Positions 4,378 through 33,345 of a stretch of DNA of 64,000 nucleotides are shown piece by piece. The stretch is from Sulfobacillus benefaciens (GTDB lineage: Bacteria > Bacillota > Sulfobacillia > Sulfobacillales > Sulfobacillaceae): the NCBI GenBank assembly GCA_003023695.1, contig PXYW01000008.1, positions 1 through 64,000 on the forward strand, written 5' to 3'. Each line of letters starts with the position of its first letter. Within the stretch, counting starts at the first letter, position 1. Made by a program: the position numbers and the translations under genes. The notes under the pieces were generated by a model. The model did not search any database, had not been told where the DNA came from, and was given only the letters and a program-made list of their open reading frames with translations.

Positions 4378-4771
4378 TCTAAAGGCAGCCCGCGTCCTCA
4401 GTCATTTACCAGGTCAGGCATCGACGGCCTGCTTTCATGCCCAACAAGCCGCCGAGAAGGCGCTCAAATCTCTTTATGCCGCCGGTGGTCAAACTCCACC
4501 GAAAACCCATGATCTTGATGTTTTGCGAGACAAAATTTCCGGTGGTCATGATTTATCTTCACTGGCCGAAGCGTGTGCTGTGCTGAGCATGTACGCAGTC
4601 GATTCGCGCTACCCCGGCGCTCATATCCAAGACGATGAAGTATTGCCGGCCATCGCATTCGCCGAAAACATCATCTCCAAGGTAACGACCATCCTGCAGC
4701 AACTGGACGCATCGCAAGGAACATCAAACGGGTACCTTCCAGCTGAACCGGAATCACACTCTGCCGACTGA
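4331..4771 (+). pseudogene. HEPN-domain protein interrupted by TGA
   Basis: From ATG 4331 the frame reads MPNPIVQE, meets TGA at 4355-4357 (codon 9), then continues as LSFATRDLKAARVL and the HEPN core HAQQAAEKALKSLYAAGG with PKTHDLDVL. The total would be 146 residues, normal for a PF05168-type HEPN protein. Tryptophan is common at the interrupted position in this family, so the change is probably TGG to TGA. No good start codon lies between the stop and the domain. A TTG at about codon 65 is too late. The partner MNT gene looks intact, so the pair may be inactivated on the HEPN side. Confidence 0.75.
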
Positions 4772-5673: not shown

Positions 5674-6012
5674 GTGGATCCCGAACTCAAAGCCTATTTT
5701 GATGGCATATTCCGAAATTTGAGTCAACAAATTGCACAGTCTCGGCAGGAGAATCACGAGACGCGCCACGATTTGACGCAACAAATCGCCGAGTCCCGTG
5801 AGCATGCCGAGCGCTTGAATCAGGAAACGCGCCACGACTTAATAGATCATATGGACCGCCGCATTAACGAAACCCACGTGTTAATCGAAGACGTACGGCA
5901 CGAGGTCCAGCTGTTGGCTGAGGGCATCATCACCATTCACGACCAACTGGGACGCATCCTCGCCGATCACGAAGAACGCATTACCCGTCTTGAGCGACGT
6001 GGGATACTGTAA
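5674..6012 (+). CDS. Coiled-coil hypothetical protein
   Basis: This is a 112-residue hydrophilic protein with no hydrophobic segment. Heptad-like spacing and many Gln, Glu, Arg and His residues point to one long coiled coil. It contains an internal duplication: a QQIAQSR unit with ETRHDL (about residues 18-36), then QQIAESR and ETRHDL again. The start is GTG at 5674 with an AAGGAG ribosome site 7 bases upstream. No function can be assigned. It could be a structural or partner protein. It stands alone, with gene-poor DNA on both sides. Confidence 0.6.
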   Translation: MDPELKAYFDGIFRNLSQQIAQSRQENHETRHDLTQQIAESREHAERLNQETRHDLIDHMDRRINETHVLIEDVRHEVQLLAEGIITIHDQLGRILADHEERITRLERRGIL

Positions 6013-7603: not shown

Positions 7604-7691
7604 GTCATCACCGGGTCGCCACGAAATGATGGAAATGGTATTTTGTGGGAGCGACAGGGTCGGTGCGCGAAACTTCGTTTACGTTGACAGG
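7604..7691. repeat. Diverged repeat, copy B
   Basis: This is the second copy of the repeat at 574-660, in the same orientation and about 7 kb away. No tRNA fragment lies next to this copy. The two copies could mark the ends of a decayed insertion, or be members of a dispersed family. Confidence 0.5.
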
Positions 7692-8003
7692 CTAGGCCTG
7701 CACTCCTATTGTCTGGTCTGGTTTGAGAACAGACGGTTGCTCTCTACCATTGATGGATCGGCCAAAAACCGGTTTTCGGCACGGTGCGTGTTTCTTTCCT
7801 TGGTCAAGTGGCGTCCGATTGTCGCCGGGATGGATTTTGAGTGTCGTCTCTGTTCGACATGGTAACATAAGAACTCTAGAGCTATGTATCTCTTCGGCCT
7901 ATTTTGGGGTTGTCTAAGACACTTTCCTCAGTGCAACGGGTCTATTAACATTTAACTCAACTGTAGGTATAAATACTATCATTGAGTGTTATAATGGGAC
8001 GGG
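7692..8003. promoter_or_regulatory. Upstream region of the AAA ATPase, with -10 box
   Basis: No gene is seen here. A perfect TATAAT lies at 7990-7995, only 8 bases before the GTG at 8004. Either the message is leaderless or nearly so, or translation begins at GTG 8013. No clear -35 box is present. Confidence 0.35.
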
Positions 8004-10953: not shown

Positions 10954-11331
10954 TTACTCTGCCGTGTGCTTTTCTAAAAGCTCTTGAAGTATCCGCATTG
11001 CATTAATTGCCGTGGGAAAGCCGGCGTACGGCACGGTCTGGATAACGGTCTCTTTCAACTCTTCGGGACTTACACCAACATTGAGGGCCCCCTGCAAATG
11101 CACCTGCAACTGTGATTCACGGCCTAGCACGGTTAGAATAGCTACCGTAATCATCTCTCGGTCCCGCAAGGCCAAATTTTCGCGCCGGTAGATGTCACCG
11201 AAGGCAAATTCCACGATATATTTGCCAAGATCGCCCAACTGCTGCGTAATTTCGGGCCCGATTAAGCCATCAACAGTAATGAGTGTTTCTAGCCCTGCCT
11301 CATAACGGCTGGATTCGCGTTGTTTTTCCAT
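10954..11331 (-). CDS. Carboxymuconolactone decarboxylase family protein
   Basis: This is a 125-residue all-helical protein of the CMD/AhpD superfamily. It shows the family pattern ALRDREMITVAILTVLGR, then QLQVHLQGALNVGVSPEELKE and ETVIQTVPYAGFPTAINAM. There is no CxxC pair, so it resembles 4-carboxymuconolactone decarboxylase rather than the peroxidase AhpD. It is the last gene of the minus-strand carboxylase operon, after the DUF35 gene. It may act on a ring-derived lactone or be an accessory protein; its partner reaction cannot be named. It is probably co-transcribed with the upstream genes. Confidence 0.85.
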   Translation of the reverse strand: MEKQRESSRYEAGLETLITVDGLIGPEITQQLGDLGKYIVEFAFGDIYRRENLALRDREMITVAILTVLGRESQLQVHLQGALNVGVSPEELKETVIQTVPYAGFPTAINAMRILQELLEKHTAE

Positions 11332-11396
11332 TGGTCCCTCCCTCTTTCTATCAACGCTGTGAATCGCGTTGAGGTAATGGATCTTAAACTTTCCAC

Positions 11397-11735
11397 TTAC
11401 CGCGCGTCCAGCGGGTGCAAGACAAGACCGTACCGTTCGTCCGGGGAGATGTGTACTACGGTGCCGATTGTCACGCGGTCGAGGTCGGTGAATCGGCTCA
11501 GCCTGCCAACCACGCGAACCTGATTATTAAGCAATACGGTAGCTACCCCATAAGGAATATCGTCTAAATAGTGTAACGGCGCCACATGAAGCACAGTAAA
11601 AGACTCAACCGTTCCCGACACATTCTCTATCATTGTCCCTTCCGTGGACTGGCAAGCCCAACAGTGAAATGGCGCACCCTCTGCGACCGCAGAAATTTTA
11701 TGACATCGTTGACACGCATACAACACATAGTTCAT
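11397..11735 (-). CDS. DUF35 zinc-ribbon/OB-fold protein (thiolase partner)
   Basis: This 112-residue protein has an N-terminal rubredoxin-like zinc ribbon (CQRCHKISA and CWACQST, two CxxC pairs) and a C-terminal OB-fold (GTVESFTVLHVAP, then RVVGRLSRF). DUF35 proteins are known partners of SCP2-type thiolases and hydroxymethylglutaryl-CoA synthases, where they scaffold the complex and bind CoA intermediates. It lies 52 bases after the thiolase gene on the same strand, the standard arrangement. A subunit role in the thiolase complex is inferred from this. Confidence 0.88.
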   Translation of the reverse strand: MNYVLYACQRCHKISAVAEGAPFHCWACQSTEGTMIENVSGTVESFTVLHVAPLHYLDDIPYGVATVLLNNQVRVVGRLSRFTDLDRVTIGTVVHISPDERYGLVLHPLDAR

Positions 11736-11787
11736 TGAAATTACCCCCTTGGGTCAGATTTTACCGACGGCTGTTCTTGCCGGCAGC

Positions 11788-12951
11788 CTATGTCCGAGCG
11801 AGAATATTAATCACCACGGCACCTCCTGTGCCACCTACGTTATGGGTCAGGCCGATCCGTGCCCGCCGTGCCGGTCGATCGGCGGTGCCTCGCAACTGTT
11901 GCACCACTTCATATACTTGGGCTAGTCCCGTTGCTCCCACTGGATGGCCTTTTGAGAGAAGACCACCAGATAGATTCACGGGTCGCTCGCCATCCCATAG
12001 TGTGCTTCCCGACGCGATGTATGGTCCGCCTTCCCCTGGACCACAAAATCCCAAGTCCTCCATGGCGATGACCTCCGCTGCTGAGAAACAATCATGAACT
12101 TCAGCTATGTCAATATCTTCCGGGCCTACATGCGCCGTCTCATACGCAGCTTGAGCAGCATGGCGGACGGCGCTTAAACTGGTAAGGGAGTCCATTTCTT
12201 GTAGCGCTGCTGGGCCTGCCGCCTGAGTAGATGCCAACACCTCAATCATTGTTCCGCCAAGGGCTTTAGCCACATTTTCAGAAACAATGATGGCGGCCGA
12301 TGCCCCATCGGAAATGGGGCAACAATCATATAAGCGCAAGGGTTCGGCGATTAACCGCGACTGCTGGATTTTTTCCCACGTCACCGGATGGCCAAAAAAC
12401 TGAGCCCGAGGGTTGTATTGGGCATTATCGCGATTTTTCTTGGCGACATATGCAAAGTGGTCCATTGTCGTACCATAAACCGCCATATGGCGGCGGGCCA
12501 ACAACGAGAAAAAGCCGGCAAACGTCAGTCCCGTGAGCGGTTCACCGGATGCTTGATCCATGGCGCTGGCTAATACGTTTGTCACTTGTTCAGTAGTGCT
12601 GCCCGTCATAACCTCGGCTCCTACGGCTAGCGCGATGTCACATTGTCCGGTGGCAACTGCCAGAGCAGCCAAATGAAACGCGATGCCACCGGAGGCACAA
12701 GCTCCTTCCACTGCTGTGGCAGGACCAAGTGTTAACCTCAAACCGGAAGCTACCACCGCAGCGAGCATTTTCTGTCCCTGCAGCATGCCTGCGGCAAAAT
12801 TTCCGAAATATAAGTGCTCAACAGCCTCAGAAGACACCTTGGCATCTGCCATGGCGCCTATTCCGGCAGCTATTGCTAAGCTCTTGATGGACGCATCACC
12901 CAGTTTGCCAAACGGAGTACTAAACACGCCTGCAACATAAACCTTTCTCAT
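11788..12951 (-). CDS. SCP2-type thiolase
   Basis: This is a 387-residue thiolase of the lipid-transfer/SCP2 type. The nucleophile cysteine lies in VEGACASGGIAFHLAAL, the catalytic histidine in SKGHPVGATGLAQ, and the C-terminal NVGGTGGAVVINI loop is typical. I chose ATG 12951 (MRKVYVAGVFSTPFG) with GGAG about 7 bases upstream; the longer frame upstream lies inside the ligase gene. In the operon it would cleave a beta-ketoacyl-CoA made by the carboxylase and the CoA ligase, giving acetyl-CoA and a shorter acyl-CoA. That pathway role is inference. Cytosolic. Confidence 0.9.
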   Translation of the reverse strand: MRKVYVAGVFSTPFGKLGDASIKSLAIAAGIGAMADAKVSSEAVEHLYFGNFAAGMLQGQKMLAAVVASGLRLTLGPATAVEGACASGGIAFHLAALAVATGQCDIALAVGAEVMTGSTTEQVTNVLASAMDQASGEPLTGLTFAGFFSLLARRHMAVYGTTMDHFAYVAKKNRDNAQYNPRAQFFGHPVTWEKIQQSRLIAEPLRLYDCCPISDGASAAIIVSENVAKALGGTMIEVLASTQAAGPAALQEMDSLTSLSAVRHAAQAAYETAHVGPEDIDIAEVHDCFSAAEVIAMEDLGFCGPGEGGPYIASGSTLWDGERPVNLSGGLLSKGHPVGATGLAQVYEVVQQLRGTADRPARRARIGLTHNVGGTGGAVVINILART

Positions 12952-13006
12952 CGAAAAGTCTCCTTCTGCTCCCATATTTTCCTCGTGCTCGCTACACCCA
13001 AAGACA

Positions 13007-14584
13007 TCAATGAATCTGACGCGATTCGCCTTGCCAATACGTGTGGCGCAACCGTTTTTTGTCAATTTTTCCATACGCAGTGACGGGTAACGCATCAACA
13101 AACTCAACAAACTTAGGCCGCTTGTATTTTGCTAAGCGCTCCCGAGTCCACAGCAGAATATCCTCGGAACGCACGGGGATCAACGGATCTGGCACCACCA
13201 CTGCTAACACAGTTTCTCCCCAATCTTCATCAGGCACCCCAATGACGGCCACCTGTAACACACCTGGGCAACGTTGCAAAACATTTTCTACCTCTGACGA
13301 ATAGACGTTCATCCCACCGGTAATAATGATGTCTTTCTTTCGGTCCACCAGGTACACGTAACCGTCGTCATCTTGATAGCCCATGTCCCCGGTGTATAAC
13401 CACCCATCCTTTAATACTTCTTGGGTTTTTTCTGGAAGATGAAGATAACCGGCCATGTTATATGGGGTTTTGGCAATGACTTCCCCAACTTCCCCTGGTG
13501 CCACAGGATTACCCTGATCGTTGACGATGCACACCTGTGCCATCATCACTGGTTGTCCGCAACTCGCCAATTTACTTGGGTCGGTTAAACCGCGCACATG
13601 ATCTTCCTTGCGCAATCGGGTAATGAAGTCCGGGGCCTCACTTTGTCCATACAATTGGAGGAACACGGGACCCAACCATTTCATCCCTTGTTCTAAACGG
13701 GCTACCGTGATTGGCGCTGCACCGTAAACCATAGTGCGCAACGAGATACTCATTGGCTCATCGTGCAGTGTCTCCATGACGTCTAACAGGCGGTAAATCA
13801 TGGTCGGCACCATGAATGTCAAGGTAATCCGCCCTTTTTTCAGCCACTGCACTGCCTCCTCGACATTAAAGCGACGCTCTACAATAATACGCGCTCCCTT
13901 TAGCAACCCGGCATTAAGTAAAAATCCCGCGGAATGGGGAAGGGGGGTCATCAGCAAGAAGACTTCATCATCCAATAAGCCAAGTTCAATCACATGTGAC
14001 AGGAAGTTCAGCACCATTGCCGATTGGGTATGTACAACTCCCTTTGGTAATCCGGTCGTTCCACCAGTATAAATGATGAGCGCTTGATCATCGCTTTTGG
14101 TGGGGGGCAAAGGAAGAGCATCAAAGGATTGCTGCATAAAATCGCGCCAAGCAATCCAGCCAGGCGGCAATTCCTCCTCCGATCCCACGACAATAATGGC
14201 CTGGAGATGTGGCAAAGCAGCCGCGAACAGGGACACAATTGGCACAAACGCTGCATCGACTATAAGAACATGGGCTTCGGAATCGCGAAGAATGTATTGA
14301 ATGTCTTCTCCTGACAACATATCGTTTAGTCCCACCCGGGTCGCTCCACAAAACATGATAGCTAAATCACCAATCACATATTCAAAACAATTGGACATCA
14401 GAAGCCCCACACTGATATTTCGAGTCGCTCCTAATGTCGCAAGACCCTGGGCTAAGTGTTGAGCTTGGGACATGAGCTCCCCATAAGTCATCTCTTGGCT
14501 TCCCATTTGTAATGCTACTTTCGTGTTAAACCGACTCAAAGCCTCGGAAAAAAGACTTTGTAACGTAAGCGTATCGCGATTCAT
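13007..14584 (-). CDS. Acyl-CoA ligase (AMP-binding)
   Basis: This 525-residue ANL-superfamily ligase forms acyl-AMP and then acyl-CoA. The P-loop is YTGGTTGLPKGV, A5 includes LQLYGQSEAPD, A7 is YTGDMGYQDDDGY, A8 is DRKKDIIITGGMNVYSSEVE, and the catalytic lysine lies in TAYGKIDKKRL. Its position directly after the five carboxylase-like genes corresponds to bal, the benzoylacetate-CoA ligase in the acetophenone operon of Aromatoleum. The substrate is therefore probably a beta-keto acid, but this is inferred from context. The gap to the thiolase start is short, indicating a common transcript. Confidence 0.9.
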   Translation of the reverse strand: MNRDTLTLQSLFSEALSRFNTKVALQMGSQEMTYGELMSQAQHLAQGLATLGATRNISVGLLMSNCFEYVIGDLAIMFCGATRVGLNDMLSGEDIQYILRDSEAHVLIVDAAFVPIVSLFAAALPHLQAIIVVGSEEELPPGWIAWRDFMQQSFDALPLPPTKSDDQALIIYTGGTTGLPKGVVHTQSAMVLNFLSHVIELGLLDDEVFLLMTPLPHSAGFLLNAGLLKGARIIVERRFNVEEAVQWLKKGRITLTFMVPTMIYRLLDVMETLHDEPMSISLRTMVYGAAPITVARLEQGMKWLGPVFLQLYGQSEAPDFITRLRKEDHVRGLTDPSKLASCGQPVMMAQVCIVNDQGNPVAPGEVGEVIAKTPYNMAGYLHLPEKTQEVLKDGWLYTGDMGYQDDDGYVYLVDRKKDIIITGGMNVYSSEVENVLQRCPGVLQVAVIGVPDEDWGETVLAVVVPDPLIPVRSEDILLWTRERLAKYKRPKFVEFVDALPVTAYGKIDKKRLRHTYWQGESRQIH

Positions 14585-14614
14585 GCCGTTGCCTCCCTAG
14601 AGTGATGCCGTCAG

Positions 14615-15436
14615 TTAGGATCGGTGGCACCACTGTTGCAATTTGTCCAAGACAGTTTCAGGCCGTACTGTAGCAGGAATTTTTCCGTATCCCCATCGTC
14701 GAGAGGGGCTAGGAAGTGGCTGGTCGGTTTCCCAAAATTCCTTGGTTAATCCCCCAGCCACGTCGATGCCTAATTTCCACAGCGCGGACAATTGGTCCAG
14801 CGCACAATCGGGTAATAACAGAAAGTCAAGGCCGACACGTTGAGGATCCAAGATCGGCACTTTTCGTGCGGCCAGTTCGACTCCTTTGGCCCAGCCATAA
14901 TGGTCTGCAAGATTCCAAATCGGCTGGCATGGCTCCCAGCTATTAGGCTCTTCGTCAGCTTCTAAGACTACCCCTGCGATATGACAGGGCATTAGCGTTC
15001 TTAAAAAATCCGCTTGGTACATCGCCGCGCGTTCGACTTCTGTCTCAGTTCCCGTAGTTTGGATATCTTGGAGAAGCTTTTGCGGCGCGGGCAGACTGAC
15101 GAAAACCGGCACGCTATTGCCCCATAGTGTGGTGAGCCCGGTTAATACTGTGGCCAGATGGCCTTGATCAGCCAGTTGTTTCAGTTGCTGCCGCAGTTGT
15201 CGCAGAGGCGGTTCACGGTCCGTTGGAGCCGGGGGCCATTGATAGGCGCCCCGGACTAAAACTATATCGGTGTGTAACAAATCGTGACCCTGCTGAATTA
15301 CCCGAATCATGCCCGCGGTGTCCGATGGATGAGGCAGACCAAACAATCCGGTGGCATAGTCCCAGTAATCTATCCATAACAAACTTCGTAGCCCTTGCCG
15401 GAATTGATCTCTAGCTTCCAAAAATGTGTTAGCCAT
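14615..15436 (-). CDS. Putative fifth (epsilon/Apc5-like) carboxylase subunit
   Basis: This 273-residue soluble protein (~30 kDa) belongs to no family I recognise from motifs. It starts MANTFLEARDQFRQGLRSL and contains SLPAPQKLLQ, then GVVLEADEEPNSWEP and RVGLDFLLLPDCALDQL. Its start overlaps the stop of the HyuB-like gene by 8 bases, and the CoA ligase gene follows. This is exactly where Apc5 (~34 kDa) lies in the acetophenone carboxylase operon, where that subunit is needed for activity. The assignment rests on position and size only. Confidence 0.6.
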   Translation of the reverse strand: MANTFLEARDQFRQGLRSLLWIDYWDYATGLFGLPHPSDTAGMIRVIQQGHDLLHTDIVLVRGAYQWPPAPTDREPPLRQLRQQLKQLADQGHLATVLTGLTTLWGNSVPVFVSLPAPQKLLQDIQTTGTETEVERAAMYQADFLRTLMPCHIAGVVLEADEEPNSWEPCQPIWNLADHYGWAKGVELAARKVPILDPQRVGLDFLLLPDCALDQLSALWKLGIDVAGGLTKEFWETDQPLPSPSRRWGYGKIPATVRPETVLDKLQQWCHRS

Positions 15437-17684
15437 GCGAAGGCTCCATACCGTGTTGAATCTGGGCCAATATTTGTTCTAATTCCGCAATGCGAACGTC
15501 TTTGGGGTCGGGCATCATTACCGGAGTGATGGCGTCGGCCGCCATTTTTGTCTGAGGCATTCCGGCGTATCCTCCCGCATAAATGACATCGCGGTCATTC
15601 CAGGAGCCAAAAAACGGCAGATCCGCGGGCGGCTCGTTGGTTACCCAAGTTTTGACAAACTCCTGATAGGGAACACCCCGTTGCAATCGCCGTTGGCGTT
15701 CTTGTAGGCGCTCTTGCAACGTGGCCTCTTCATCGACCCGCAGGGTATCGGGGTCGTAGACGACGTGGTAGATTTCCGATGCTGTCCACGGAGAAATGAG
15801 TTCTTCTTCCAGATCCTTCATGACTAGTTGTGGATCGCGCTCGAGAACATCGCCATAGCCGCCGCCACTCCCTTGGGTAATCATGTACAGTTCGCCGTCT
15901 TTGGCCAGTTCGAATTGCAACCCCATGTGATGCGTGCTATACGTTGCATTGGGGAATGGACGATCGTTCATAATATCCTCGATGGTAAAGGAAAACCGTT
16001 CCGGATGGATCTGGAACTCTTCGAACACATTGACACCTTTCACCTTACACAACGGGTAGGTGGGACAAGCATATCCGCCAAATAATCCGGTAATCGACGG
16101 AAACTTTGATCCAATACAGGTCGTCATAAATCCCCAGAATGGACTGCCTTTGGTGGTCATCATCATTTGATATCCCTGACCTCCGCGGAATTTGCCAAAT
16201 GCCTGGTTGTCCCGCATTAGTTTTTTAGATACCAACTGCATAAAAGGATTTTCTTCTTCGTTGAACTCTTGCTCTCCAATGTCGGCCATCGCGGCGAAAA
16301 TGGGGGCGATGGAGTGTTCTCCATCATGCGTTTCATGTGCGCCGCCGCCCATGCCATTGAGATCGGCACAGAGATTGCCCACGGTCTCTCCATGCTGGGT
16401 GATGCCCCCATAGATAAACGTGGTAATCATGTTGTACCAAGGTGCAATCAGCTCCGTATAGCGGCGCTCAGAGGAATACAAAAATTTTGCCACCGCTGCT
16501 TGACCCGCGCTAAATGCGGGAAAAAACGTCATCATCGATTGAGCGTTGGGTGTTTCATATGAGGAATTCAAGGTAGATCGCGGTTCCACTACCAATTCAA
16601 TGGGTGCAAAAACCGCTTGATTGCGCGGGAGATCAGGCCAGACAAAGCTGAGGAACAACTGCGACAACATGCCTTTGAGCGATGCCAGTACGGTATTATT
16701 TGCTCGATTCATGAATTCGGGGCTGGATCCACGAAAGTCAAAGACCAACCGATCGCCTGTCTTGGTCAAGGTTAAATTTATTTTGACCAGCACATTTTCG
16801 CGCAGTGTGCTGTCGGCGAACAAGACCGTGCGCACGGTCCCATCTGGCCACTCCCGCAGTCTGCGTTTCACTTCTTCTTTGGTATCCTCCAAGGTCCGTC
16901 GTAAAGTCGCAACCACGGCGTTCACCCCATAATCGGCAATAGCTTCTTCTAGCCGCTGTTTAACCCGTAGGGTGGTGAATAGTTTGGATTTCATGTCCTC
17001 TAGCTGCAACTTGGGTTCCCGCACGGAGTTTTGAAAGTAGGTTACTAAATCTCGTTTCAGCTGATAATTCTCGCCCACTTTTAATGGAGAAATTTTAAGA
17101 CCTTCCATGTAGGGGGATTCTGCCGCTGAAGGCATGCCCCCAGGCTCTACTGCACCATTTTCTCCTTCATGAACAATGGCGCTTATCCAAGCAATAAGTA
17201 CTCCTTCATGAAAGACGGGAATGATAATGCTTTGATCGGTATTATGAATATTGCCGTACCGGGCGTCATTATGCATAAATACATCTCCGGGGCGCACACC
17301 AACGGTCGGCTCATTCATCCAATACTTGCGAATAAACTTCACTGGGTGTTGGGTCAATGTAGAAAACACCAACACGCCTCCTGTGCTCGATAAGGCGAGG
17401 TCACCACTAGCTGAATAGATACCGCAAATGAGGTCTCCCCATTTGGCTCCCGGCGCCGCCCCCATCTGCTCCTCCATCTCAAACGCTTCATTGACCCCTG
17501 ATTGCAATCGGCTGCGGACTAAACTAATGACGCGGGGATCTGTGGTCAATTGAAGCGCACGGGCTTCTTCGTCCGTCTGGGGCGCAATGTCATGCTCTTT
17601 CATTATGTCGGGATCCGGGCCTAAAAACAGTGGAGTTTGTCCTAAAAATTTCTCGAGTAGTTCTTGTTGGTTCATCACAGCCAT
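15429..17684 (-). CDS. HyuB-like ketone carboxylase beta subunit (Apc4-like)
   Basis: This 751-residue protein belongs to the hydantoinase B/oxoprolinase family. Family landmarks are DVFMHNDARYGNIHNTDQ, WISAIVHEGENGAVEPGG, FDFRGSSPEFMNRANNT, GGGAHETHDGEHS and GSGGGYGDVLERDP. In acetone and acetophenone carboxylases, this subunit carries the metal site where the ketone enolate is carboxylated after ATP activation in the HyuA-type subunits. The length matches Apc4/AcxB (~75-87 kDa) better than ordinary hydantoinase B (~500-600). It lies between the second HyuA gene and the putative epsilon gene. Substrate specificity cannot be read. Confidence 0.88.
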   Translation of the reverse strand: MAVMNQQELLEKFLGQTPLFLGPDPDIMKEHDIAPQTDEEARALQLTTDPRVISLVRSRLQSGVNEAFEMEEQMGAAPGAKWGDLICGIYSASGDLALSSTGGVLVFSTLTQHPVKFIRKYWMNEPTVGVRPGDVFMHNDARYGNIHNTDQSIIIPVFHEGVLIAWISAIVHEGENGAVEPGGMPSAAESPYMEGLKISPLKVGENYQLKRDLVTYFQNSVREPKLQLEDMKSKLFTTLRVKQRLEEAIADYGVNAVVATLRRTLEDTKEEVKRRLREWPDGTVRTVLFADSTLRENVLVKINLTLTKTGDRLVFDFRGSSPEFMNRANNTVLASLKGMLSQLFLSFVWPDLPRNQAVFAPIELVVEPRSTLNSSYETPNAQSMMTFFPAFSAGQAAVAKFLYSSERRYTELIAPWYNMITTFIYGGITQHGETVGNLCADLNGMGGGAHETHDGEHSIAPIFAAMADIGEQEFNEEENPFMQLVSKKLMRDNQAFGKFRGGQGYQMMMTTKGSPFWGFMTTCIGSKFPSITGLFGGYACPTYPLCKVKGVNVFEEFQIHPERFSFTIEDIMNDRPFPNATYSTHHMGLQFELAKDGELYMITQGSGGGYGDVLERDPQLVMKDLEEELISPWTASEIYHVVYDPDTLRVDEEATLQERLQERQRRLQRGVPYQEFVKTWVTNEPPADLPFFGSWNDRDVIYAGGYAGMPQTKMAADAITPVMMPDPKDVRIAELEQILAQIQHGMEPSHG

Positions 17685-17726
17685 CGATATTCCCTCCTCG
17701 GCGTTTTCCTGTGGCGTACTTACTTG

Positions 17727-19850
17727 CTACACACGGCGAATCCAGGCCGCACCTTGTTGGTCCATATGAAGTACCCAATCGCGCTCCACCAGGTAGGTAG
17801 TACGAGGGGACTCAATTAAGGCAGGTCCAATAATCTTTGCTCCTTCTGGTACCCGGTCGGCGCGATAGACTGCTGTTTCCACGGGTTGTGCAATACCGGG
17901 AAAGTGGCACAAGCGATGTCCTACTGGATCTGCGTCAGCGTCCGTGTATACAGTCGTGCGGCGAAAGGGGATCCGTCCAGTTTGCACAAATGACAGTACG
18001 CGGATTGCGTTAATACGAATTCCGGCTTCGGGTGCCTGGCTTCCTTGGCCGAATCGGCGTCCATAATCGTCTCCGAATGCCTCAATGAGGTGTAACAAAT
18101 CGGCATCTGATGCTATCCGACGCACCGGGCTAACGACAGAGGTTTGGGTGAGTTGGTTGCCATAACGCATATCTAATTCCAACCGAAATTGAATCGCTTC
18201 TTCAGTCAGTCCTTGTCTTTTCAGATCTTCACGGCCCAGATTTTCCAATTCCGCCACGATATTATTGAATGTCTCGTATTGATCCATTAGGCGCTGCGTG
18301 TTGGAATCGTAGACCCACATAAAGACCGAACGTTCGTGGACATGCATTTGATCCATATTGCCAGCCCCTAATGCAGAAAAGACCGAGCTAAACGGCGGAA
18401 TGAGAATTTGCGATGAGCCTAAGGCCGACGCAATGCCGCAGCAATGCAAAGGCCCATTACCTCCATATGCCAAGAGAGTAAATTGTCGCGGATCGTATCC
18501 CTTAGCTCCCAACTCTTTAGAGATAGCGTGGGCCATATTGGTATCAACTTTTTGTTTGATGAATTGCGCCACTTCGACAACGGATAATCCTGTAAGTTCA
18601 CAAAGCTCATCTTCGATTGCAAATTCAGAGCGGCGGCGGTTCAAGTTGATGTGACCACCCGCATAGTACTCTGGATCGAGATATCCCAAGATTAAATCGG
18701 CATCCGTGACCGTAGGCAAAAGGCCACCCCGGTCATAACACGCGGGACCTGGATCAGAACCCGCACTCATAGGACCAATTTCTATCGTGTTGTATAAACG
18801 ATCAAACCGGGCAATAGAGCCTCCGCCCGCACCTATGGTCTCCAAATGCATCATGGGAACGTTCACCAGCCATCGGTCCATAACCGGATTGAAGTCGTAA
18901 AATTTAATTCCCCCCTTGACAACAATACCAATGTCGAAACTGGTGCCGCCCATATCGGTCGTCACAATGTTATCGATGTCAAACTGATCTCCCAGATGTT
19001 CCGAGGCATTGACACCTGCCACGGGTCCTGAATGAATGGTCTGCAACGCATGAGTCGAGTTGAGTTGGGCCATTCCTCCGGTGTTGTGCATCACTAACAT
19101 GGGTTTTTGGTAACCAGATTCCTTTAGTCGCATCTCTAACGCACTGAGTCCATAGTACATTTGGTCATGTAGGTAGGCGTCCAAGATGGCGGAAGTGGCC
19201 CGGACATATTCTCCCTTGCGGCCTCCAACCTGATGAGACAAAATGACGGGAAAGTTTCCTAAGAGGTGACTAGGATATTCGTCTAAGATGACCTCTTCTA
19301 CGAGGCGTTCATGTTCGGGATTCATTACCGAGTTGACTAAGGCTACTACAAAGGCTCTTGCGCCGCGATCGATTAGGGTGCGGACTTGACTCCTTAGGTG
19401 CTCAACATCCAAGGGCAATACCACCGTGCCTCGATAATCGATACGCTCACGCAAACCGCGAATTAGGGGAATCGATACCAAAGGTTCGGGCCGACGGGCA
19501 CCTGGAAGATCGGCTTGGGCCCCCGGCGATAATCCTTCCCCGTATCCACGCCCACGCATCAAAGGAATGGCGCTTTCGTATCCCGCGGTAACTAACACGC
19601 CTACGGACGGTCCAGTTCTTTCGATCAGGGCGTTGGTTCCTAATGTGGTAGCATATCGTACCGAATCCACTTGGGAGAGCACGCTGTGCGTGGTTTCATT
19701 GATGGATTCGGCCGCTTGGGCCAATGCTTCCATAAATCCATTGGCTAAATTGTGGTGAGTCGTTAGCGCTTTGGCTTCGATGTACTGATCGTCAAAAACG
19801 AGAAAACAGTCGGTAAAGGTGCCGCCGATATCCACACTGACTCTTTTCAT
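17727..19850 (-). CDS. HyuA-like ketone carboxylase subunit (Apc3-like)
   Basis: This is a 707-residue hydantoinase A/oxoprolinase-type ATPase. The N-terminal ASKHA-fold phosphate loop is DIGGTFTDCFLVFD, the second nucleotide loop is TTDMGGTSFDIGIV, and LAYGGNGPLHCCGIA follows. The subunit binds ATP and activates either bicarbonate or the ketone by phosphorylation, as shown for related carboxylases. Its ATG overlaps the stop of the small gamma gene (ATGA), so they are translated together. Its size, larger than the other HyuA gene in the operon, fits Apc3 (alpha-prime). Confidence 0.88.
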   Translation of the reverse strand: MKRVSVDIGGTFTDCFLVFDDQYIEAKALTTHHNLANGFMEALAQAAESINETTHSVLSQVDSVRYATTLGTNALIERTGPSVGVLVTAGYESAIPLMRGRGYGEGLSPGAQADLPGARRPEPLVSIPLIRGLRERIDYRGTVVLPLDVEHLRSQVRTLIDRGARAFVVALVNSVMNPEHERLVEEVILDEYPSHLLGNFPVILSHQVGGRKGEYVRATSAILDAYLHDQMYYGLSALEMRLKESGYQKPMLVMHNTGGMAQLNSTHALQTIHSGPVAGVNASEHLGDQFDIDNIVTTDMGGTSFDIGIVVKGGIKFYDFNPVMDRWLVNVPMMHLETIGAGGGSIARFDRLYNTIEIGPMSAGSDPGPACYDRGGLLPTVTDADLILGYLDPEYYAGGHINLNRRRSEFAIEDELCELTGLSVVEVAQFIKQKVDTNMAHAISKELGAKGYDPRQFTLLAYGGNGPLHCCGIASALGSSQILIPPFSSVFSALGAGNMDQMHVHERSVFMWVYDSNTQRLMDQYETFNNIVAELENLGREDLKRQGLTEEAIQFRLELDMRYGNQLTQTSVVSPVRRIASDADLLHLIEAFGDDYGRRFGQGSQAPEAGIRINAIRVLSFVQTGRIPFRRTTVYTDADADPVGHRLCHFPGIAQPVETAVYRADRVPEGAKIIGPALIESPRTTYLVERDWVLHMDQQGAAWIRRV

Positions 19851-20215
19851 GCAGGGTTTCCCCCTTTGTGAGATGAGTTCTTCCCGGCCATCCGGGCTTT
19901 CAATGCCTCTAGATCGAATTCCATATCATAAGTGGGCGGATGTCCCGGCGGCAAATATTCGGTTTCCACTTGTGTTCCGCATTGAGGACAGTAGAATTCT
20001 AGGATCCTACACCATTTAGGATCAGGGCTAAAGGTAAACGGATACACATCCGCTCGGAGTATAGGTCGATGGATCTCCTGCGGATTTCGGTCATACACTA
20101 GCAATCCTTCTTTATAATTGCGCCGAGCCGATGTCAAATAATGGCCACATCGTCGGCAATGCCAACTTTCTGTCTCTACATCAATTTCCAGATATTCAGT
20201 CATAGGCACACGCAC
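19847..20215 (-). CDS. Acetone-carboxylase-gamma-like zinc subunit (Apc2-like)
   Basis: This 122-residue protein resembles the gamma subunit of acetone carboxylases (PF08882) and Apc2 (~15 kDa). Two zinc-binding knuckles are visible, CRRCGHYLTS and CPQCGTQVE, and the end TEYLPPGHPPTYDMEFDLE is typical. The start is GTG 20215, with GGAGGG 7 bases upstream. It sits between two HyuA-type genes and overlaps the next one by 4 bases. Its presence separates this operon from ordinary hydantoinase or oxoprolinase loci, which lack a gamma subunit. Confidence 0.85.
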   Translation of the reverse strand: MRVPMTEYLEIDVETESWHCRRCGHYLTSARRNYKEGLLVYDRNPQEIHRPILRADVYPFTFSPDPKWCRILEFYCPQCGTQVETEYLPPGHPPTYDMEFDLEALKARMAGKNSSHKGGNPA

Positions 20216-20227
20216 GTGAGTTCCCTC

Positions 20228-22141
20228 CTATCGATGCGTCAGAGTGATGTCCCGATTTTCATTGATGTCAAACTGCCAGCCTTTTGGCACGTAACAGGTG
20301 TAGTACCTGTCCTCAATCACGGCCGAACCGATCCCAGTTGCACCTGGAGCCAGGTCGGCGGCCTGATAAACTAGGATGTCTTCACGTTGGTAGGTGTCGG
20401 GATTAATCACCGAACGTCGGCTTTGTGACACCGCTTTTATCGGTTGGATGGCGGTCGGATTCGAGAGTTGAAAATGGTCGATCTTAGCTATCACGTGCAA
20501 GCGGAGAGTCGCAGGTTCAATTTGGTGTGGGGCGGTATCCCACAACGTATGAGGATTTGACGCAAGAGCGACTTCTTCACCAGAATGACTGCGAATCGAC
20601 CACCGAAGTTCACATGCCTCGAGCCGAAATCCTTCGGCAAACATATCTCGTTGCGCACGATCTTGCAATTCACCTGCGGCGATGGGAATCTCCTTTGGAG
20701 ACCCGACAACGGCATCGTAGGTGTGGGCAATATCACTAAAAGAAATTCCAAAGGCGCTAAATACGGCTGCGAGTCGCGGAATGACAACGGTATCGATATC
20801 GGCTTGTTCTGCGACCCCACATGCACAAAGCGGTCCGGCGCCGCCAAATCCCAGCAATACCGTACCGTTACCAGAAGGCGGCAATGCGTCCGCTAAGGTG
20901 CGCTCGAATTGCTCACGGGTTTTGACGGCCGCTTCGTCCACTGATAGTCCCAGAGGTTCGGCAACAAAGCGACGTAATGCTTCTCGGGCCCGACTCACGT
21001 CTAAAGTGAGTTGGCCACCGAAAAAGGATTGCGGGTCGAAAAGCCCCAAAGTGAGCCAGGCATCGGTGACTGTCGGTTGTTCTCCGCCTCGACCAAAGCA
21101 CGCCGGCCCTGGCAATGCGCCCATGCTGTCTGGACCAATCCGCACTGTGCGTCCACTGGCCGAGATTACAGAACTACCACCCGCTCCAATACTGTGCGAA
21201 TCCAGCAAGTTAATGGCGGTAGGGACTCCTTCAATGGTGCCAAAATGCTGCTCAATAATATTGCCTTCTTGTACTAAACCAAAATCGGTGGTTGTACCGC
21301 CCACATCCATGGTAACTGCTCGCGGCCATCCATAGAGTTGGGCCAATGCACGGGCGCCTTCCAAACCGCCGCGGGGCCCTGAACTATAGGTTTTAAGCGC
21401 CACGGTTTTGGCTACACGAGCCGAATTCCCATCATTGTGAAAGATTAATAGAGGTCGTCGCGCGTGATGTTTGCGCATAATTTCCTGGGCATTAAATAAA
21501 AACCGTTCTACCTCGGGATGCAAAAATGAATTAAACAACGCTGTCCAGGTGCGACGATAATCGTTCGCATCTACTGCTAACTCGTGCGAGTACAAAACCG
21601 GCACGGCCCCCAGCATGTGTCGAGGGAATTTGCGCAAAATAATTCGTTTTATGATCTGTTCATCGCGGAGACGATGCGGGTCGGAAAGACTGACCACTAA
21701 GCGATTGGCTCCCGCACTCAACAGTTGATTGACAGCGCGAACCACGGTTGCTTCATCAATCGTGGAATCGTCAACAATATTCACGGCAATTACTTGATCG
21801 CCGACTAAGCGTTTCCAGAGCTCTTCTGCCTTCAACGTGGTCTGAAACTGTTTGAGGTCGGTTCCCGACCGGACAATAAGTCCGAGGCGTGGCCCCTTGC
21901 GTTGCACCAAGGCATTGGTGCCCACCGTCGAGGAGTAACGAATCCACTCCACTTCTGCCAGAAACTTGTCGAGGTCGACCGATTCTTGCCAATCAAGGGC
22001 AGCACGTCGCAAGACTTCGACAAAGCATTCTGAAAGGTCGTATGGTGTTGTTAGCGTTTTGGTGTGGTAAACCTTATCACCATTGGTCAGACAGGCATCG
22101 GTAAATGTTCCACCATTGTCAATCGTAATCAGTAAGGACAT
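20228..22141 (-). CDS. HyuA-like ketone carboxylase subunit (Apc1-like)
   Basis: This is a 637-residue HyuA/oxoprolinase-family ATPase and the first gene of the operon. The loops are DNGGTFTDACLTNGDK, VTMDVGGTTTDFGLV and LGFGGAGPLCACGVAE. The size (~69 kDa) fits Apc1 (alpha). ATG 22141 is preferred because AGGAGGAAAGGGG lies just upstream; an earlier ATG at 22168 overlaps that ribosome site. In the known enzyme the two HyuA-type subunits form the ATP-hydrolysing part of an (alpha alpha' beta gamma)2 core. The promoter should lie in the 22.14-22.25 kb gap shared with the divergent regulator. Confidence 0.87.
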   Translation of the reverse strand: MSLLITIDNGGTFTDACLTNGDKVYHTKTLTTPYDLSECFVEVLRRAALDWQESVDLDKFLAEVEWIRYSSTVGTNALVQRKGPRLGLIVRSGTDLKQFQTTLKAEELWKRLVGDQVIAVNIVDDSTIDEATVVRAVNQLLSAGANRLVVSLSDPHRLRDEQIIKRIILRKFPRHMLGAVPVLYSHELAVDANDYRRTWTALFNSFLHPEVERFLFNAQEIMRKHHARRPLLIFHNDGNSARVAKTVALKTYSSGPRGGLEGARALAQLYGWPRAVTMDVGGTTTDFGLVQEGNIIEQHFGTIEGVPTAINLLDSHSIGAGGSSVISASGRTVRIGPDSMGALPGPACFGRGGEQPTVTDAWLTLGLFDPQSFFGGQLTLDVSRAREALRRFVAEPLGLSVDEAAVKTREQFERTLADALPPSGNGTVLLGFGGAGPLCACGVAEQADIDTVVIPRLAAVFSAFGISFSDIAHTYDAVVGSPKEIPIAAGELQDRAQRDMFAEGFRLEACELRWSIRSHSGEEVALASNPHTLWDTAPHQIEPATLRLHVIAKIDHFQLSNPTAIQPIKAVSQSRRSVINPDTYQREDILVYQAADLAPGATGIGSAVIEDRYYTCYVPKGWQFDINENRDITLTHR

Positions 22142-22261
22142 CGGATTGAGATCCCCTTTCCTCCTCATACCATTGTTACGGACTGAATGTTATGGTAATT
22201 TAAAATCGAGCAATAATGAATGGCAACTGTTGATAATAGATGAGGGAGATGTTTGTCGGTA

Positions 22262-24184
22262 ATGCATAACAAAGGGTACAGTTCCGCCAATATGCTGACG
22301 TTACTGGATACCATTGGAAAGTGGGTCAGTCAAATTGATTCCGACACTGAAGGCATTTATCGGATTCATCCCCACTGGCCGGCAGATCTCGCTTCGGATC
22401 CTATTGCAGAAGCGCTCTCTGGACTCCTCCGCGCCATACAGCAGCAAATGCGACAAGTTACGGTTCAGCATGCGGCATCCGTCAAAATTATGGGCCAATT
22501 AGCTGAAGATATCGCCAGTTTGGCTCCGCTTCAGGAGGTGTTGCAACGAATTTGCGACACCGCTCGTTATCTTTTGGCTTCGGATATTGGATATATTGCG
22601 CTTTTAAACGACGCTAAAGATGCCATTGTGGTACAAGCCGGGTCTGGAGTCAGTCCTGCGTTAATAGGTGTGCGCCAACGACTTGGTCAAGGCATCGGTG
22701 GCCGGGTTATCCTGACCAAGCGACCTACCGTATTTAAAAACTATCCTGCGGAAGTGCGGCGCGATCCGGAGGTCGAAAATGCGATTGATCGGGAACATAT
22801 CATTTCGGCAATTGCTGTGCCTCTGATTCGTGGAGATCATGCCATTGGGGTTCTATACACAGCGATGCGGAGCATTCATGAATACGGACCGGAAGAGATT
22901 GAGTTAGCCGCCAATTTAGCTATGCTAGCGAGTGTGGCCATTCATAATGCTGCTTTGTACGACCAAACTGCATGGCTCATGAAGATCAACCAAGAATTCG
23001 CTCAAATAGCCTTAATCGATAACGTGCTCGATCACATCTGTGTCACGCTGGGAAAATTGACTAATAGTCGTGTTTCGGTCTTGGATTCTCGTGCGCTGCC
23101 CATTGCGATGGGGAACAGGACAGTATGGGAGATTGATGAGGTCACAGGACCGTTAAAGAAATTTTTTAGTCAAAAGTCTAGCGCCGATTATTCCTTTACG
23201 ACGCCACGCAACGAGGTCGGGATCCTCTCCCCATTGGATAGCAGACGAGGTATCGCCGCTGTCTTAGCGCTAGTCAAGCATCCGCCTTATGCAACGTTAT
23301 CCGAACGCGATTTTGTCGCCATTGACCGGGCCAAACATTTCCTTGAATTAGGACTCAATCAATTGCGTCTGCGCCATGAAGTACACCTGGCCGCCACTTC
23401 TGCATTCTTACAAAACGTTATCGGGGGTCATTTTTCTGCCGAACTTCTAGCGGACCAAGCCCGTCAATTGCAATTGGATCGTCCTGACCGCTATGGTCTT
23501 CTAGTGGCTTATGTCGGTTCCCCCTCCGATGTGAGTCTTCACCGCGTCGCGATCCAAGAGATGTTGGCAGGCGTGCGAATCCCGATACAGCATCACTCGC
23601 TGGTCGCTTCTATGGTGGAGGACAATTGCTTCATCGGGCTTAGTGAAAGTTCCTCAATCGAGACCATGGCTACTTATCTGCACGAAACTTTGACCGCACT
23701 CGTTGCTCCTTACCCTGTATGGATCGCGGTCGGTGAACCATGTCCACAGTGGTTGGAGTATTCTCGGCAGTGGCATAATTGTTTAACCACACTGCAATGG
23801 CATTCCCGCGTCCGTCCCCAAATTCCGGTTATCTCCTCAACAGAATATGGCCTTATTGGGGTTCTTTTTGATGCCTCCAATGTGGACCAAGTAAAACGAT
23901 TCTGCGACGTGACCTTAGGACCGCTCTACGATTACGACCAACAAGCGGGAAGCGATTTACTCCACACACTACTCATCTACTTGGATCATGAATGCGAACT
24001 TCGCTCCAGTGCCACGGCACTCCATATCCACTACAACACATTACGGTATCGTCTGCAGCAAATAGCATCAATCCTGTCAATAGATCTCGAAGAACATAGC
24101 ACGCGTCAACAGCTGCGCATGGCATTATGGTGCCAAGAAGCCTTCGGGTTTCTTTCGCCAGCATCTTCACCGAAACCATCGTAA
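22262..24184 (+). CDS. GAF/PucR-type transcriptional regulator
   Basis: This ~640-residue regulator has a helical N-terminus, a GAF domain at about residues 85-240 (GQGIGGRVILTKRPTVFKN, then AIAVPLIRGDHAIGVLYTA), a long middle part, and a PucR/CdaR C-terminal helix-turn-helix ending HIHYNTLRYRLQQIASIL. Such proteins sense a small molecule and activate neighbouring catabolic genes. It is divergent from the carboxylase operon, 121 bases apart, so it most likely controls that operon. I chose ATG 22262; TTG 22253 is also possible because GAGGGAG lies at 22242-22248. There are no membrane segments. Confidence 0.87.
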   Translation: MHNKGYSSANMLTLLDTIGKWVSQIDSDTEGIYRIHPHWPADLASDPIAEALSGLLRAIQQQMRQVTVQHAASVKIMGQLAEDIASLAPLQEVLQRICDTARYLLASDIGYIALLNDAKDAIVVQAGSGVSPALIGVRQRLGQGIGGRVILTKRPTVFKNYPAEVRRDPEVENAIDREHIISAIAVPLIRGDHAIGVLYTAMRSIHEYGPEEIELAANLAMLASVAIHNAALYDQTAWLMKINQEFAQIALIDNVLDHICVTLGKLTNSRVSVLDSRALPIAMGNRTVWEIDEVTGPLKKFFSQKSSADYSFTTPRNEVGILSPLDSRRGIAAVLALVKHPPYATLSERDFVAIDRAKHFLELGLNQLRLRHEVHLAATSAFLQNVIGGHFSAELLADQARQLQLDRPDRYGLLVAYVGSPSDVSLHRVAIQEMLAGVRIPIQHHSLVASMVEDNCFIGLSESSSIETMATYLHETLTALVAPYPVWIAVGEPCPQWLEYSRQWHNCLTTLQWHSRVRPQIPVISSTEYGLIGVLFDASNVDQVKRFCDVTLGPLYDYDQQAGSDLLHTLLIYLDHECELRSSATALHIHYNTLRYRLQQIASILSIDLEEHSTRQQLRMALWCQEAFGFLSPASSPKPS

Positions 24185-25300: not shown

Positions 25301-25885
25301 TCATAAATTCTTCTCGGCTCCTGTTGGTTCATGTAGTCGTGCTAACGTAGATAGCAAAGATGGTTTTGCTACGTGAGCCCAAGGATCAATTACCGAGGGA
25401 AGATTCTCCAGTTGGTCCTCTAAGATGTAGAGTCCATGGGTGGGTACTACTCCCCCAAGTTCAACTAATAGGGATCGCAAGTATAACTCGACTGCCATGG
25501 CGTGACGGGGACTAGATCCAAGCATTACAGGAATGGTAACAATTTTTTGTAGACTTCCTTGGCGAAACCAATCTAGGAATGCTTTAAGCAATCCGGTATA
25601 AGTCCCCTTATATGTAGGGCTCGCAACTACCAAAAGGGATGCAGAGCAGACATCACGCACTGCTGAAGCAACGACATCAGATTTTGCGTCAAACATGTAC
25701 GGGGCCATCGTAGCAAGATCGTATAGCCTAGTCTCGCAGATGACGTTTTCTGCGTGAAACATCTGAGTAATAGTATGCGCTATTGCTTCTGCGACATCTC
25801 GAGTGCGAGACATGGGCTTTGGGTTTCCGACAATGATGGCGATCCGAGCAACTTGTGTCTTTGGATTATCTCGGTTTGCGGACAC
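25301..25885 (-). CDS. NADPH-dependent FMN reductase
   Basis: This ~194-residue flavodoxin-like reductase belongs to the SsuE/FMN_red family. The first strand and phosphate-binding loop are IAIIVGNPKPMSRTRDVAE. The second flavin segment is VVASPTYKGTYTGLLKAFLDW. It would supply FMNH2 to a flavin-dependent monooxygenase. GTG 25885 is chosen because GGAGG lies 6 bases upstream (GGAGGctaacgGTG); it overlaps the end of the monooxygenase gene by 20 bases. The longer frame to 25951 has no ribosome site. It looks intact, although its presumed partner is broken. Confidence 0.85.
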   Translation of the reverse strand: MSANRDNPKTQVARIAIIVGNPKPMSRTRDVAEAIAHTITQMFHAENVICETRLYDLATMAPYMFDAKSDVVASAVRDVCSASLLVVASPTYKGTYTGLLKAFLDWFRQGSLQKIVTIPVMLGSSPRHAMAVELYLRSLLVELGGVVPTHGLYILEDQLENLPSVIDPWAHVAKPSLLSTLARLHEPTGAEKNL

Positions 25886-26968
25886 CGTTAGCCTCCAATC
25901 GAGGTAATACTTCTTGAGCAAAATATTCGAGTTCCTTGGTATAGTCCACAAAGGAAAGGGTCATACCTGCAAACCCTGCATTCGCAAACCGAGTAATCTC
26001 GGATGCTACGTCGTCGGGAGTGCCAATTAGGGGACAACTGCCATGACCCGCGGCAAAACGGGATCGAAATGTTTGCAACATTTCCTTTGTGAAAGATTGT
26101 GCATGTAGTCCTTGGAGAGCCATGAGATTGTCCACTGCATTCCAGTCAGCATATTCATCGGCGTAATAATGAAGATAATCTTCGGCTTCTTTTCGTGTTG
26201 GTCGGCAAACGACATGACCAAGAGTAAATACTCCTATGTTTCGGTTGTATGATTCTCGCGCAGACTTAACCATAGATCTGACGACTTCTCGTCCGTCTTC
26301 GGGGCCGGACACAATAGTGAACCCAAAATCGGCATTGCGGGCGGCAAAATCACGACCCTGACGCGAAGATCCAGCGTTCAAAATCGGTATCGTTTGGTGA
26401 TAGGGTTTTGGAAGTCCCTCAACATGGTTTAAATGGAAAAAGCGTCCTTTGTAATCAAAAGGTTTCGTTTCGATCCAAATGCGACGAATGATATCCCACA
26501 ATTCCTGTGCCATCGCATAGCGGTCATCATGATCGGTAGGTAGATCTATACCAAATGTATCGTATTCTGGTTTGTTCCACCTGCAACAATGTTTAATCCG
26601 ATTCTTCCATGTCCGATTTGGTCAGCGGTAGCTAACTGTTTGGCCACAACGATTGGATGATTAAATGCAGTGTGGATAGTTGCAAACACGGTAATCCGCT
26701 GAGTTTGAGTTAAAAGCCCCGTCGCCCATATGGTGGGGTCCAAGACGCCTTCATGGAAACTTGTATCGCCACCATATCCGATCCATCGCGCAATTGGCAA
26801 GAGAAAGTCTATACCGACTTCATCAGCTAACCTTGCCAGCCGCAGATTATCTTCCCAGTTCCGTGACCAGCGCTCAGGAATTTTTGTTACCGCCAATCCA
26901 CTTGAACAATTGGGTGAAAAGAGTCCAATTTGGAAATTCTTCTCGATTAATATCGTGTTGGCGTCCAT
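25866..26968 (-). pseudogene. Luciferase-like FMN-dependent monooxygenase, frameshifted
   Basis: Two adjacent frames make one LLM-class monooxygenase of ~365 residues, of the RutA/SsuD/DmoA type. Part 1 (26968-26546) runs to ADQIGHGRIGLNIVAG. Part 2 continues as GWNKPEYDTFGIDLPTDHDD, RYAMAQELWDIIRRIW, and ends RLEANGVRKPR. The break is at 26578-26581, where one base is missing in the codon before the family's conserved GWNKPE. Such enzymes use FMNH2 and oxygen to oxidise sulfonates, pyrimidines or aminopolycarboxylates. If real, the shift removes activity. Confidence 0.8.
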
Positions 26969-27659: not shown

Positions 27660-27731
27660 ATATAGTGTGTATCGTATAAACCATGAATTGCAACCGTTGT
27701 GAAATAATTGAACAAGGGAGGAGACACCCTA

Positions 27732-29168: not shown

Positions 29169-29238
29169 GATCTCTTATGTTGGTGGGTGCGGCTTTCCGT
29201 ATACGCCAATTACTGCTAAGGAAGGAAGGTTGTGTGTC

Positions 29239-29949: not shown

Positions 29950-29967
29950 GCGCGAAGGAGGACAATT

Positions 29968-31014: not shown

Positions 31015-31070
31015 GATGCTAACGAACTGCTGAGTGCAAATGCTATTCCACGAGGAGGATCATCACCAAC

Positions 31071-33339: not shown

Positions 33340-33345
33340 TTGAGT

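Follow-up and report, generated by a model that had tools for sequence, protein, structure and literature searches.

An operon of the acetophenone carboxylase type in Sulfobacillus benefaciens, with a short aliphatic ketone as its likely substrate

We analyzed a stretch of 64,000 nucleotides from Sulfobacillus benefaciens (positions 1 to 64,000 of contig PXYW01000008.1, assembly GCA_003023695.1; hereafter, the window). Nine tightly spaced minus-strand genes at 10954-22168 encode, in this order, counterparts of the five subunits of acetophenone carboxylase (Apc), apcABCDE-like, then an AMP-forming CoA ligase, an SCP2-type thiolase, its OB-fold (DUF35) partner and a CMD-family protein; one GAF/PucR regulator gene lies divergently opposite, on the plus strand. 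We are highly confident that the window encodes an Apc-type ketone carboxylase with a downstream CoA pathway. The fuller reading, that this five-subunit carboxylase and its pathway enzymes serve a short aliphatic methyl ketone (acetone, 2-butanone or similar) and not acetophenone, is in our judgment probable, and is argued below.

For subunits A, B, C and D alike, the best relative in the PDB was the cognate Apc subunit of Aromatoleum aromaticum (5L9W), with scores of 303 bits for A (alpha subunit), 137 for B, 546 for C (gamma chain) and 290 for D (delta chain); identities to the Aromatoleum subunits were 32%, 54%, 38% and 30%, respectively. The best NCBIfam models were likewise those of ApcA-D, yet every equivalog cut-off was missed (354 bits against 1250 for ApcA, 155 against 250 for ApcB, 579 against 1500 for ApcC, 321 against 1500 for ApcD). 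Pfam searches found HyuA domains in the 646- and 707-residue proteins and HyuB in the 751-residue protein. The 122-residue protein, on whose family the first-pass annotation had staked its reading in advance, belongs to PF08882 (132 bits, cut-off 21), and its Cys20, Cys23, Cys76 and Cys79 are the four zinc cysteines. Both ASKHA kinase subunits keep their phosphate motifs (DNGGTFTD and DVGGT in A; DIGGTFTD, DMGGT and PGP in C), while the D/H/D/H ligands of the metal site are conserved in D.

To place the enzyme among its relatives, GTDB genomes were scanned with a PF08882 alignment, which yielded at least 50 loci. In a tree of D subunits (quick maximum-likelihood search, with supports from the Shimodaira-Hasegawa-like approximate likelihood-ratio test, SH-aLRT) all Apc-type sequences split from acetone carboxylases (Acx) and from hydantoinases and oxoprolinases (Hyd) with support of 99; the window subunits thus fall outside the hydantoinases and oxoprolinases, as had been supposed. 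Within the Apc side, the window sits in a clade of 18 (clade W; support 100, long stem) from which the A. aromaticum enzyme and its nearest relatives are excluded. When A and C subunits were placed in one tree, both window proteins grouped with clade W, A among the alpha' and C among the alpha subunits, each with support of 100; the A/C duplication predates the clades. A, like D, lay apart from Acx and Hyd. In the C part, Acx and Hyd rows were scattered on long branches between the clades (86), so that the deeper order cannot be read from C by itself.

Among the matches listed, clade W included Zoogloea, Rhodocyclaceae, Parvibaculum, Rhodobiaceae, Arthrobacter, Rhodococcus, Streptomyces, Corynebacterium and others. 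Its range covers Pseudomonadota, Actinomycetota, a haloarchaeon and the present Bacillota genome, and it is found on plasmids in Rhodococcus jostii RHA1 (pRHL2), Neorhizobium petrolearium, Cupriavidus necator and the haloarchaeon Halorientalis marina. The RHA1 genes are RHA1_RS41495-RS41475.

Other Apc-type clades emerged from the same scan. Clade IV (L030 = G021 C155, L070, L077, L080), which also occurs in the window's bacterial family, has its second HyuA-like gene downstream of D, not upstream of B. Clade III (L062, L064, L067, L075, L078, L081) comes from Desulfarculaceae, Proteobacteria and Dehalococcoidia; its operons have a ligase and/or a thiolase attached and no recognizable epsilon gene. 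One more Apc-type locus, L069, lies on a contig labeled as a metagenome-assembled genome of Klebsiella pneumoniae, probably a mislabeled or contaminated bin.

Genes of the Apc branch are ordered apcABCD(E), that is alpha', gamma, alpha, beta, then epsilon, and the fingerprint R/KERiDsxG is a mark of alpha, not of alpha' (PMC5214803). We found this order in the window, with RERIDYRG in C and no such motif in A; many clade-W relatives do not conform to the strict version of the pattern. The window is thus of the Apc type in its gene order, its two ASKHA subunits, the zinc cysteines, the alpha fingerprint, the separate branch and the epsilon subunit. The exception is subunit length: Apc-beta is described as ~50 residues shorter than Acx-beta (ca. 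720) (PMC5214803), and the window's D, with 751 residues versus 684 in ApcD, departs from this rule for Apc proper.

The fifth, 273-residue protein had no match to any Pfam or NCBIfam family, and a sequence search against the PDB gave none, even with a profile. Conserved counterparts, 22-26% identical to it, follow D in nearly all clade-W loci. We built an AlphaFold2 model on an alignment of 11 rows (predicted local distance difference test, pLDDT, 73; predicted template modeling score, pTM, 0.74) and compared it by Foldseek with 350,542 PDB chains. The top three matches were 9FOU chains, i.e. ApcE (best E 4e-7), followed by uroporphyrinogen decarboxylases (URO-D). At ~11% identity it is the fold that makes the match to ApcE, so this line of evidence is independent of the gene-order argument. 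Judging by the model, epsilon, the most divergent subunit, keeps its structure where sequence similarity fails. With this match and those to 5L9W, the Apc-type composition and the apc1-5-bal-like order proposed in the first-pass annotation were borne out.

The closest characterized system is ApcABCDE with Bal from A. aromaticum (5L9W; 9FOU), which has the same five subunits in the same order and a CoA ligase next to them. The window keeps its zinc-finger cysteines, ATP motifs, D metal-site residues and fifth-subunit fold; it differs in that the pocket residues and alpha' Glu248/Lys281 are replaced, E is without detectable sequence similarity, and genes for the thiolase, OB-fold, CMD and PucR proteins are added.

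The replacements in the pocket bear directly on the substrate. Seven residues line the putative acetophenone site of alpha: L81, F281, N282, P285, I333, Q344 and T345 (PMC5214803). Apc-proper enzymes have (L/M)(F/Y)NP(I/V)Q(T/S) at these positions. The window's C subunit has T I H P M H L, so the Apc-proper residues are not found there; T(I/V)HP(I/M)HL is the signature of all 18 aligned clade-W rows (the window among them), of RHA1 and of Neorhizobium, and Halorientalis has T M H P I Y M. Acx-like rows read L I/L V/I P M/V A M. Thus at position 281 of clade W an aliphatic residue replaces Phe/Tyr, as in Acx, and the histidines at 282 and 344 are new.

A second difference lies in alpha'. Glu248 and Lys281, proposed to form the bicarbonate site, were kept in the Apc-proper rows examined; the same positions are Ser/Asp in clade W and Asn/Asp in a third clade. 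With replacements in two clades, this site is not a feature of Apc-type enzymes in general.

Operons of clade W in RHA1 (pRHL2), R. qingshengii, Arthrobacter spp., Zoogloea sp. LCSB751, Neorhizobium petrolearium, Parvibaculum and Halorientalis marina share the ABCDE order of the window; their D subunits are 48-61% identical to its own, and the pocket signature is nearly the same. They differ in the activation of the keto acid (acetoacetate-CoA ligase AacS, CoA-transferase or AMP ligase) and in their regulators (sigma-54/AcoR or MalT-LuxR type elsewhere, PucR in the window). An acetoacetate-CoA ligase or a 3-oxoacid CoA-transferase adjoins 8 of the 23 clade-W loci as against 0 of 10 Apc-proper loci, at comparable score. 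The ligase was seen at three clade-W loci (two scored 790 and 783 bits, TIGR01217 cut-off 521) and a transferase subunit at five (two scored, both above the TIGR02429 cut-off); the RHA1 transferase gene looks truncated. The different activating enzymes would thus all attach CoA to a 3-oxoacid, as is needed downstream of a ketone carboxylase.

In Halorientalis marina, an AMP ligase 45% identical (444 bits) to that of the window is encoded directly upstream of the carboxylase, while an OB-fold protein and a thiolase, the latter 42% identical to the window's, are on the opposite strand; a ligase, a thiolase and an OB-fold protein next to the carboxylase are thus not unique to the window. Thiolases and ligases accompany other Apc-type operons too. 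The window thiolase is of the SCP2 type by its catalytic cysteine (CASG), HDCF motif and adjacent OB-fold protein; its best PDB match was acetoacetyl-CoA thiolase 6ESQ (269 bits), compared with 182 for benzoylsuccinyl-CoA thiolase BbsB. Its OB-fold/DUF35 partner weakly matched ChsH2 (6OK1). A CMD gene adjoins the thiolase also in the clade-W locus of Arthrobacter wenxiniae (L058). Zinc alcohol dehydrogenase genes are found near or inside clade-W operons of Arthrobacter and Streptomyces, the Streptomyces copy being between D and E. CobW-type GTPases adjoin both clade-W and Apc-proper operons, and a ZIP transporter adjoins two, as would fit a metal-containing D subunit.

It is the acetoacetate-type neighbours, the thiolase nearest to acetoacetyl-CoA thiolase and the aliphatic pocket that favor a short aliphatic methyl ketone. 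Once an Apc-type carboxylase with a CoA pathway is granted, we consider such a substrate quite likely; the caution of the first-pass annotation, which had left the ketone unnamed, was right.

From these comparisons we infer the following reaction. The five-subunit complex would carboxylate a ketone at the expense of ATP and independently of biotin. The C subunit (alpha) would use ATP to activate the ketone as an enol phosphate, and the A subunit (alpha') would spend a second ATP, which in Apc is thought to give carboxyphosphate. D with its metal site, B with its zinc finger and E with its URO-D-like fold would complete the complex, in which CO2 is joined to the ketone to give a beta-keto acid. 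The AMP-forming ligase would convert the beta-keto acid to beta-ketoacyl-CoA, which the thiolase and its OB-fold partner would split into acetyl-CoA and an acyl-CoA; the CMD-family protein may have a role here as well. The GAF/PucR protein probably activates expression of the operon when the ketone or the corresponding alcohol is present.

Could the enzyme, instead, be a true acetophenone or aryl methyl ketone carboxylase, leading from acetophenone via benzoylacetate and benzoylacetyl-CoA to benzoyl-CoA and acetyl-CoA? Subunits and gene order are those of apcABCDE-bal (PMC5214803, PMC4729919), benzoylsuccinyl-CoA thiolase is one of the SCP2-type thiolases that have an OB-fold partner, and a catabolic cluster with aromatic-type hydroxylases is present at 28-42 kb of the window. 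We consider this unlikely, and acetophenone is disfavored as the substrate: the enzyme belongs to a clade of its own, its D and C being 30% and 38% identical to those of Aromatoleum, Phe/Tyr281, Asn282, Gln344 and Thr345 of the pocket are replaced, none of the NCBIfam ApcA-D equivalog cut-offs was reached, and relatives have acetoacetate-type neighbours. Furthermore, family searches of the host genome (94.7% complete) did not find BoxB above the cut-off (25 versus 499 bits) or any member of PF06050, the HGD-D/BcrBC family of BcrB/C, so that benzoyl-CoA formed from acetophenone would be without a route of those two kinds. Matches to PF01869 (BcrAD) were considered as a benzoyl-CoA reductase and rejected, as this family is broad (found in 10 of 14 control genomes) and the partner PF06050 is absent. 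Therefore, of the initial claim, the kinship with the Apc type stood and the closeness to the acetophenone enzyme itself did not.

Several observations weigh against the short aliphatic ketone. In open-licence papers we found no tested activity for any clade-W enzyme. The host has another locus, L003 (contig C152:8459-13291), for an AcxABC-like acetone carboxylase (46%/41% identical to AcxA/AcxB), and acetone may already be served by it. The window ligase is neither an AacS nor a CoA-transferase. Ser/Asp at the alpha' site suggest that the second half-reaction may differ in clade W. The two pocket histidines, unlike anything in Apc and Acx, might fit a polar or larger ketone; some Rhodocyclaceae-type loci of clade W have MMPL or DUF1302 neighbours, which could mean a hydrophobic substrate.

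One could speculate, then, that the substrate is some other ketone, e.g. polar or cyclic, and that the two histidines bind a polar group on it. Residues 282 and 344 are histidine in every aligned clade-W row, unlike in both known ketone classes; the Acx-like enzyme already in the genome and the membrane-transport neighbours (MMPL, DUF1302) of some relatives would agree with such a substrate. The acetoacetyl-CoA synthetase and 3-oxoacid CoA-transferase neighbours point instead to small 3-oxoacids, and we regard the other-ketone explanation as rather improbable. A short aliphatic ketone is compatible with the second locus as well: 2-butanone or a higher methyl ketone would explain the upkeep of both the Acx-like locus and the window operon. 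Locus L003 is itself adjoined by a gene for a GAF/HTH, PucR-like regulator and by a CYP119-like P450.

Acetone carboxylase AcxABC (5SVB, 5M45) has in common with the window the HyuA/HyuB/gamma core, the ATP-dependent carboxylation of a ketone and the metal site. It is encoded by three genes, with no alpha' or epsilon, and forms a separate clade, to which the window's D and C are 26% and 29% identical. An acetone carboxylase proper was ruled out by gene set and tree: the window operon is not a three-gene acxABC, and the Acx-like locus of this genome is elsewhere. The hydroxyacetophenone carboxylases HpeCBA and XccABC also carboxylate a ketone before CoA activation; they are biotin-dependent and of another enzyme class (PMC9618137, PMC8461187). 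In the Arthrobacter loci L038, L039 and L041, the clade-W operon has in its vicinity genes for a zinc alcohol dehydrogenase and for a PPDK/PEP-utiliser-type protein of ~900 residues. This protein raised the HpeCBA/XccABC type as a candidate, which was rejected for its different class and because the window operon has no such gene.

That an ATP-dependent amide or lactam hydrolase (hydantoinase, oxoprolinase, caprolactamase; 6YRA, 7HK5) was misread as a carboxylase is very improbable. The HyuA and HyuB folds are common to both, and CapA matches the C subunit at 426 bits; however, Hyd enzymes are encoded by two genes, with no gamma (PF08882), alpha' or epsilon subunit (PMC5214803), all of which the window has, D lies outside the Hyd branch, and a CoA ligase and a thiolase suit a keto acid, not an amino acid. 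Hydantoinase and oxoprolinase were thus ruled out by subunit set (not a two-gene hydAB) and by tree.

Least credible of all is a decayed or idle acquisition, for which one could cite the lack of this carboxylase type in the other 41 genomes of the order that were searched, scattered repeats of relatives matching the first 8 kb of the window and a frameshifted luciferase-like gene close by, since all nine genes are open and their catalytic motifs intact.

All ten genes of the first-pass annotation are present where it had placed them (Table 1), and its naming of the CoA ligase, the thiolase with DUF35 partner, the CMD protein and the GAF/PucR regulator agrees with their Pfam domains. Gaps between successive minus-strand genes, from the apcA-like gene to the CMD gene, are 12, -4, 42, -8, 30, 55, 52 and 65 bp. 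Read from the sequence, the true start of the apcA-like gene is probably the ATG at 22141, behind AGGAGG; the thiolase most likely starts at 12951, where family matches begin, the listed open reading frame from 13110 being an over-long TTG reading. Promoter- and terminator-like matches in the region were not above shuffled controls, and a sub-consensus minus-strand promoter match at 22226-22197 was not above chance.

Table 1. Genes and intergenic region of the carboxylase operon (window coordinates)
Feature	Position	Strand	Basis
apcA-like, alpha', HyuA-like	20228-22168	-	646 aa from first ATG; 637 aa from ATG at 22141
apcB-like, zinc-finger subunit, gamma-like, 122 aa	19847-20215	-	PF08882
apcC-like, alpha, HyuA-like, 707 aa, putative ketone-activating subunit	17727-19850	-	5L9W gamma chain match
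apcD-like, beta, HyuB-like, 751 aa	15429-17684	-	PF02538, 256 bits
apcE-like, fifth (epsilon) subunit, 273 aa	14615-15436	-	predicted-fold match to ApcE 9FOU
AMP-forming acyl-CoA ligase, 525 aa, proposed beta-ketoacyl-CoA synthetase	13007-14584	-	PF00501 and PF13193
SCP2-type thiolase, 387 aa	11788-12951	-	thiolase domains, CASG and HDCF motifs
OB-fold/DUF35 thiolase partner, 112 aa, Zn-ribbon cysteines	11397-11735	-	PF01796, 34.3 bits, cut-off 27.1 (OB_ChsH2_C domain)
CMD-family protein, 125 aa	10954-11331	-	PF02627, 78.9 bits
GAF and PucR-HTH regulator, 643 aa, divergent from apcA	22253-24184	+	PF13185 GAF_2 and PF13556 HTH_30 above cut-off
Divergent intergenic region, presumed operator/promoters	22142-22252	.	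position only

The window is part of a 126-kb contig in a genome of 4.1 Mb (3.8% contaminated), and the Gram-positive host supposed at first is confirmed by its Bacillota lineage. Two genomes of the same genus encode proteins 88% identical to one of 845 residues from the window; thus, the contig belongs to the lineage and a binning error is unlikely. GC content gave no signal of recent transfer (0.511 for the operon, 0.498 for the window, 0.498-0.517 for the rest of the contig).

Window positions 1-8000 contain stretches recurring in many pieces across the genomes of relatives, as is seen for mobile or repeated elements. On the minus strand, 25866-26968 holds a gene for a luciferase-like monooxygenase whose nearest relative is dimethylsulfone monooxygenase SfnG, with a score below the cut-off; it is split into two reading frames by an apparent frameshift, either decay or a sequencing error, and adjoins an FMN reductase gene at 25301-25951. 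The catabolic cluster on the plus strand (27708-42509) encodes a permease, a GntR regulator, a cupin, an amidohydrolase, an FAH hydrolase, a three-subunit CO-dehydrogenase-like Mo hydroxylase, an SDR, an FAD aromatic hydroxylase, CoxG, a TIM-barrel isomerase and an amine-oxidase-like protein.

When the structure was published, a single Apc-type enzyme had been characterized, and the authors cautioned that function should not be assigned to remote relatives (PMC5214803). Clade W is large, spans the divide between bacteria and archaea, has its own pocket, which is sharply conserved, and is represented among strains that can be cultured, the laboratory organism Rhodococcus jostii RHA1 included. 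It makes two questions testable: whether five-subunit carboxylases exist for aliphatic ketones, and whether alpha' truly activates bicarbonate. We suggest, tentatively and as something short of an even chance, that clade W is an uncharacterized class of aliphatic-ketone carboxylases in bacteria and haloarchaea, with an alpha' that does not use the Apc bicarbonate site. If this is true, the five-subunit architecture would be separated from aromatic substrates and the second half-reaction would need revision.

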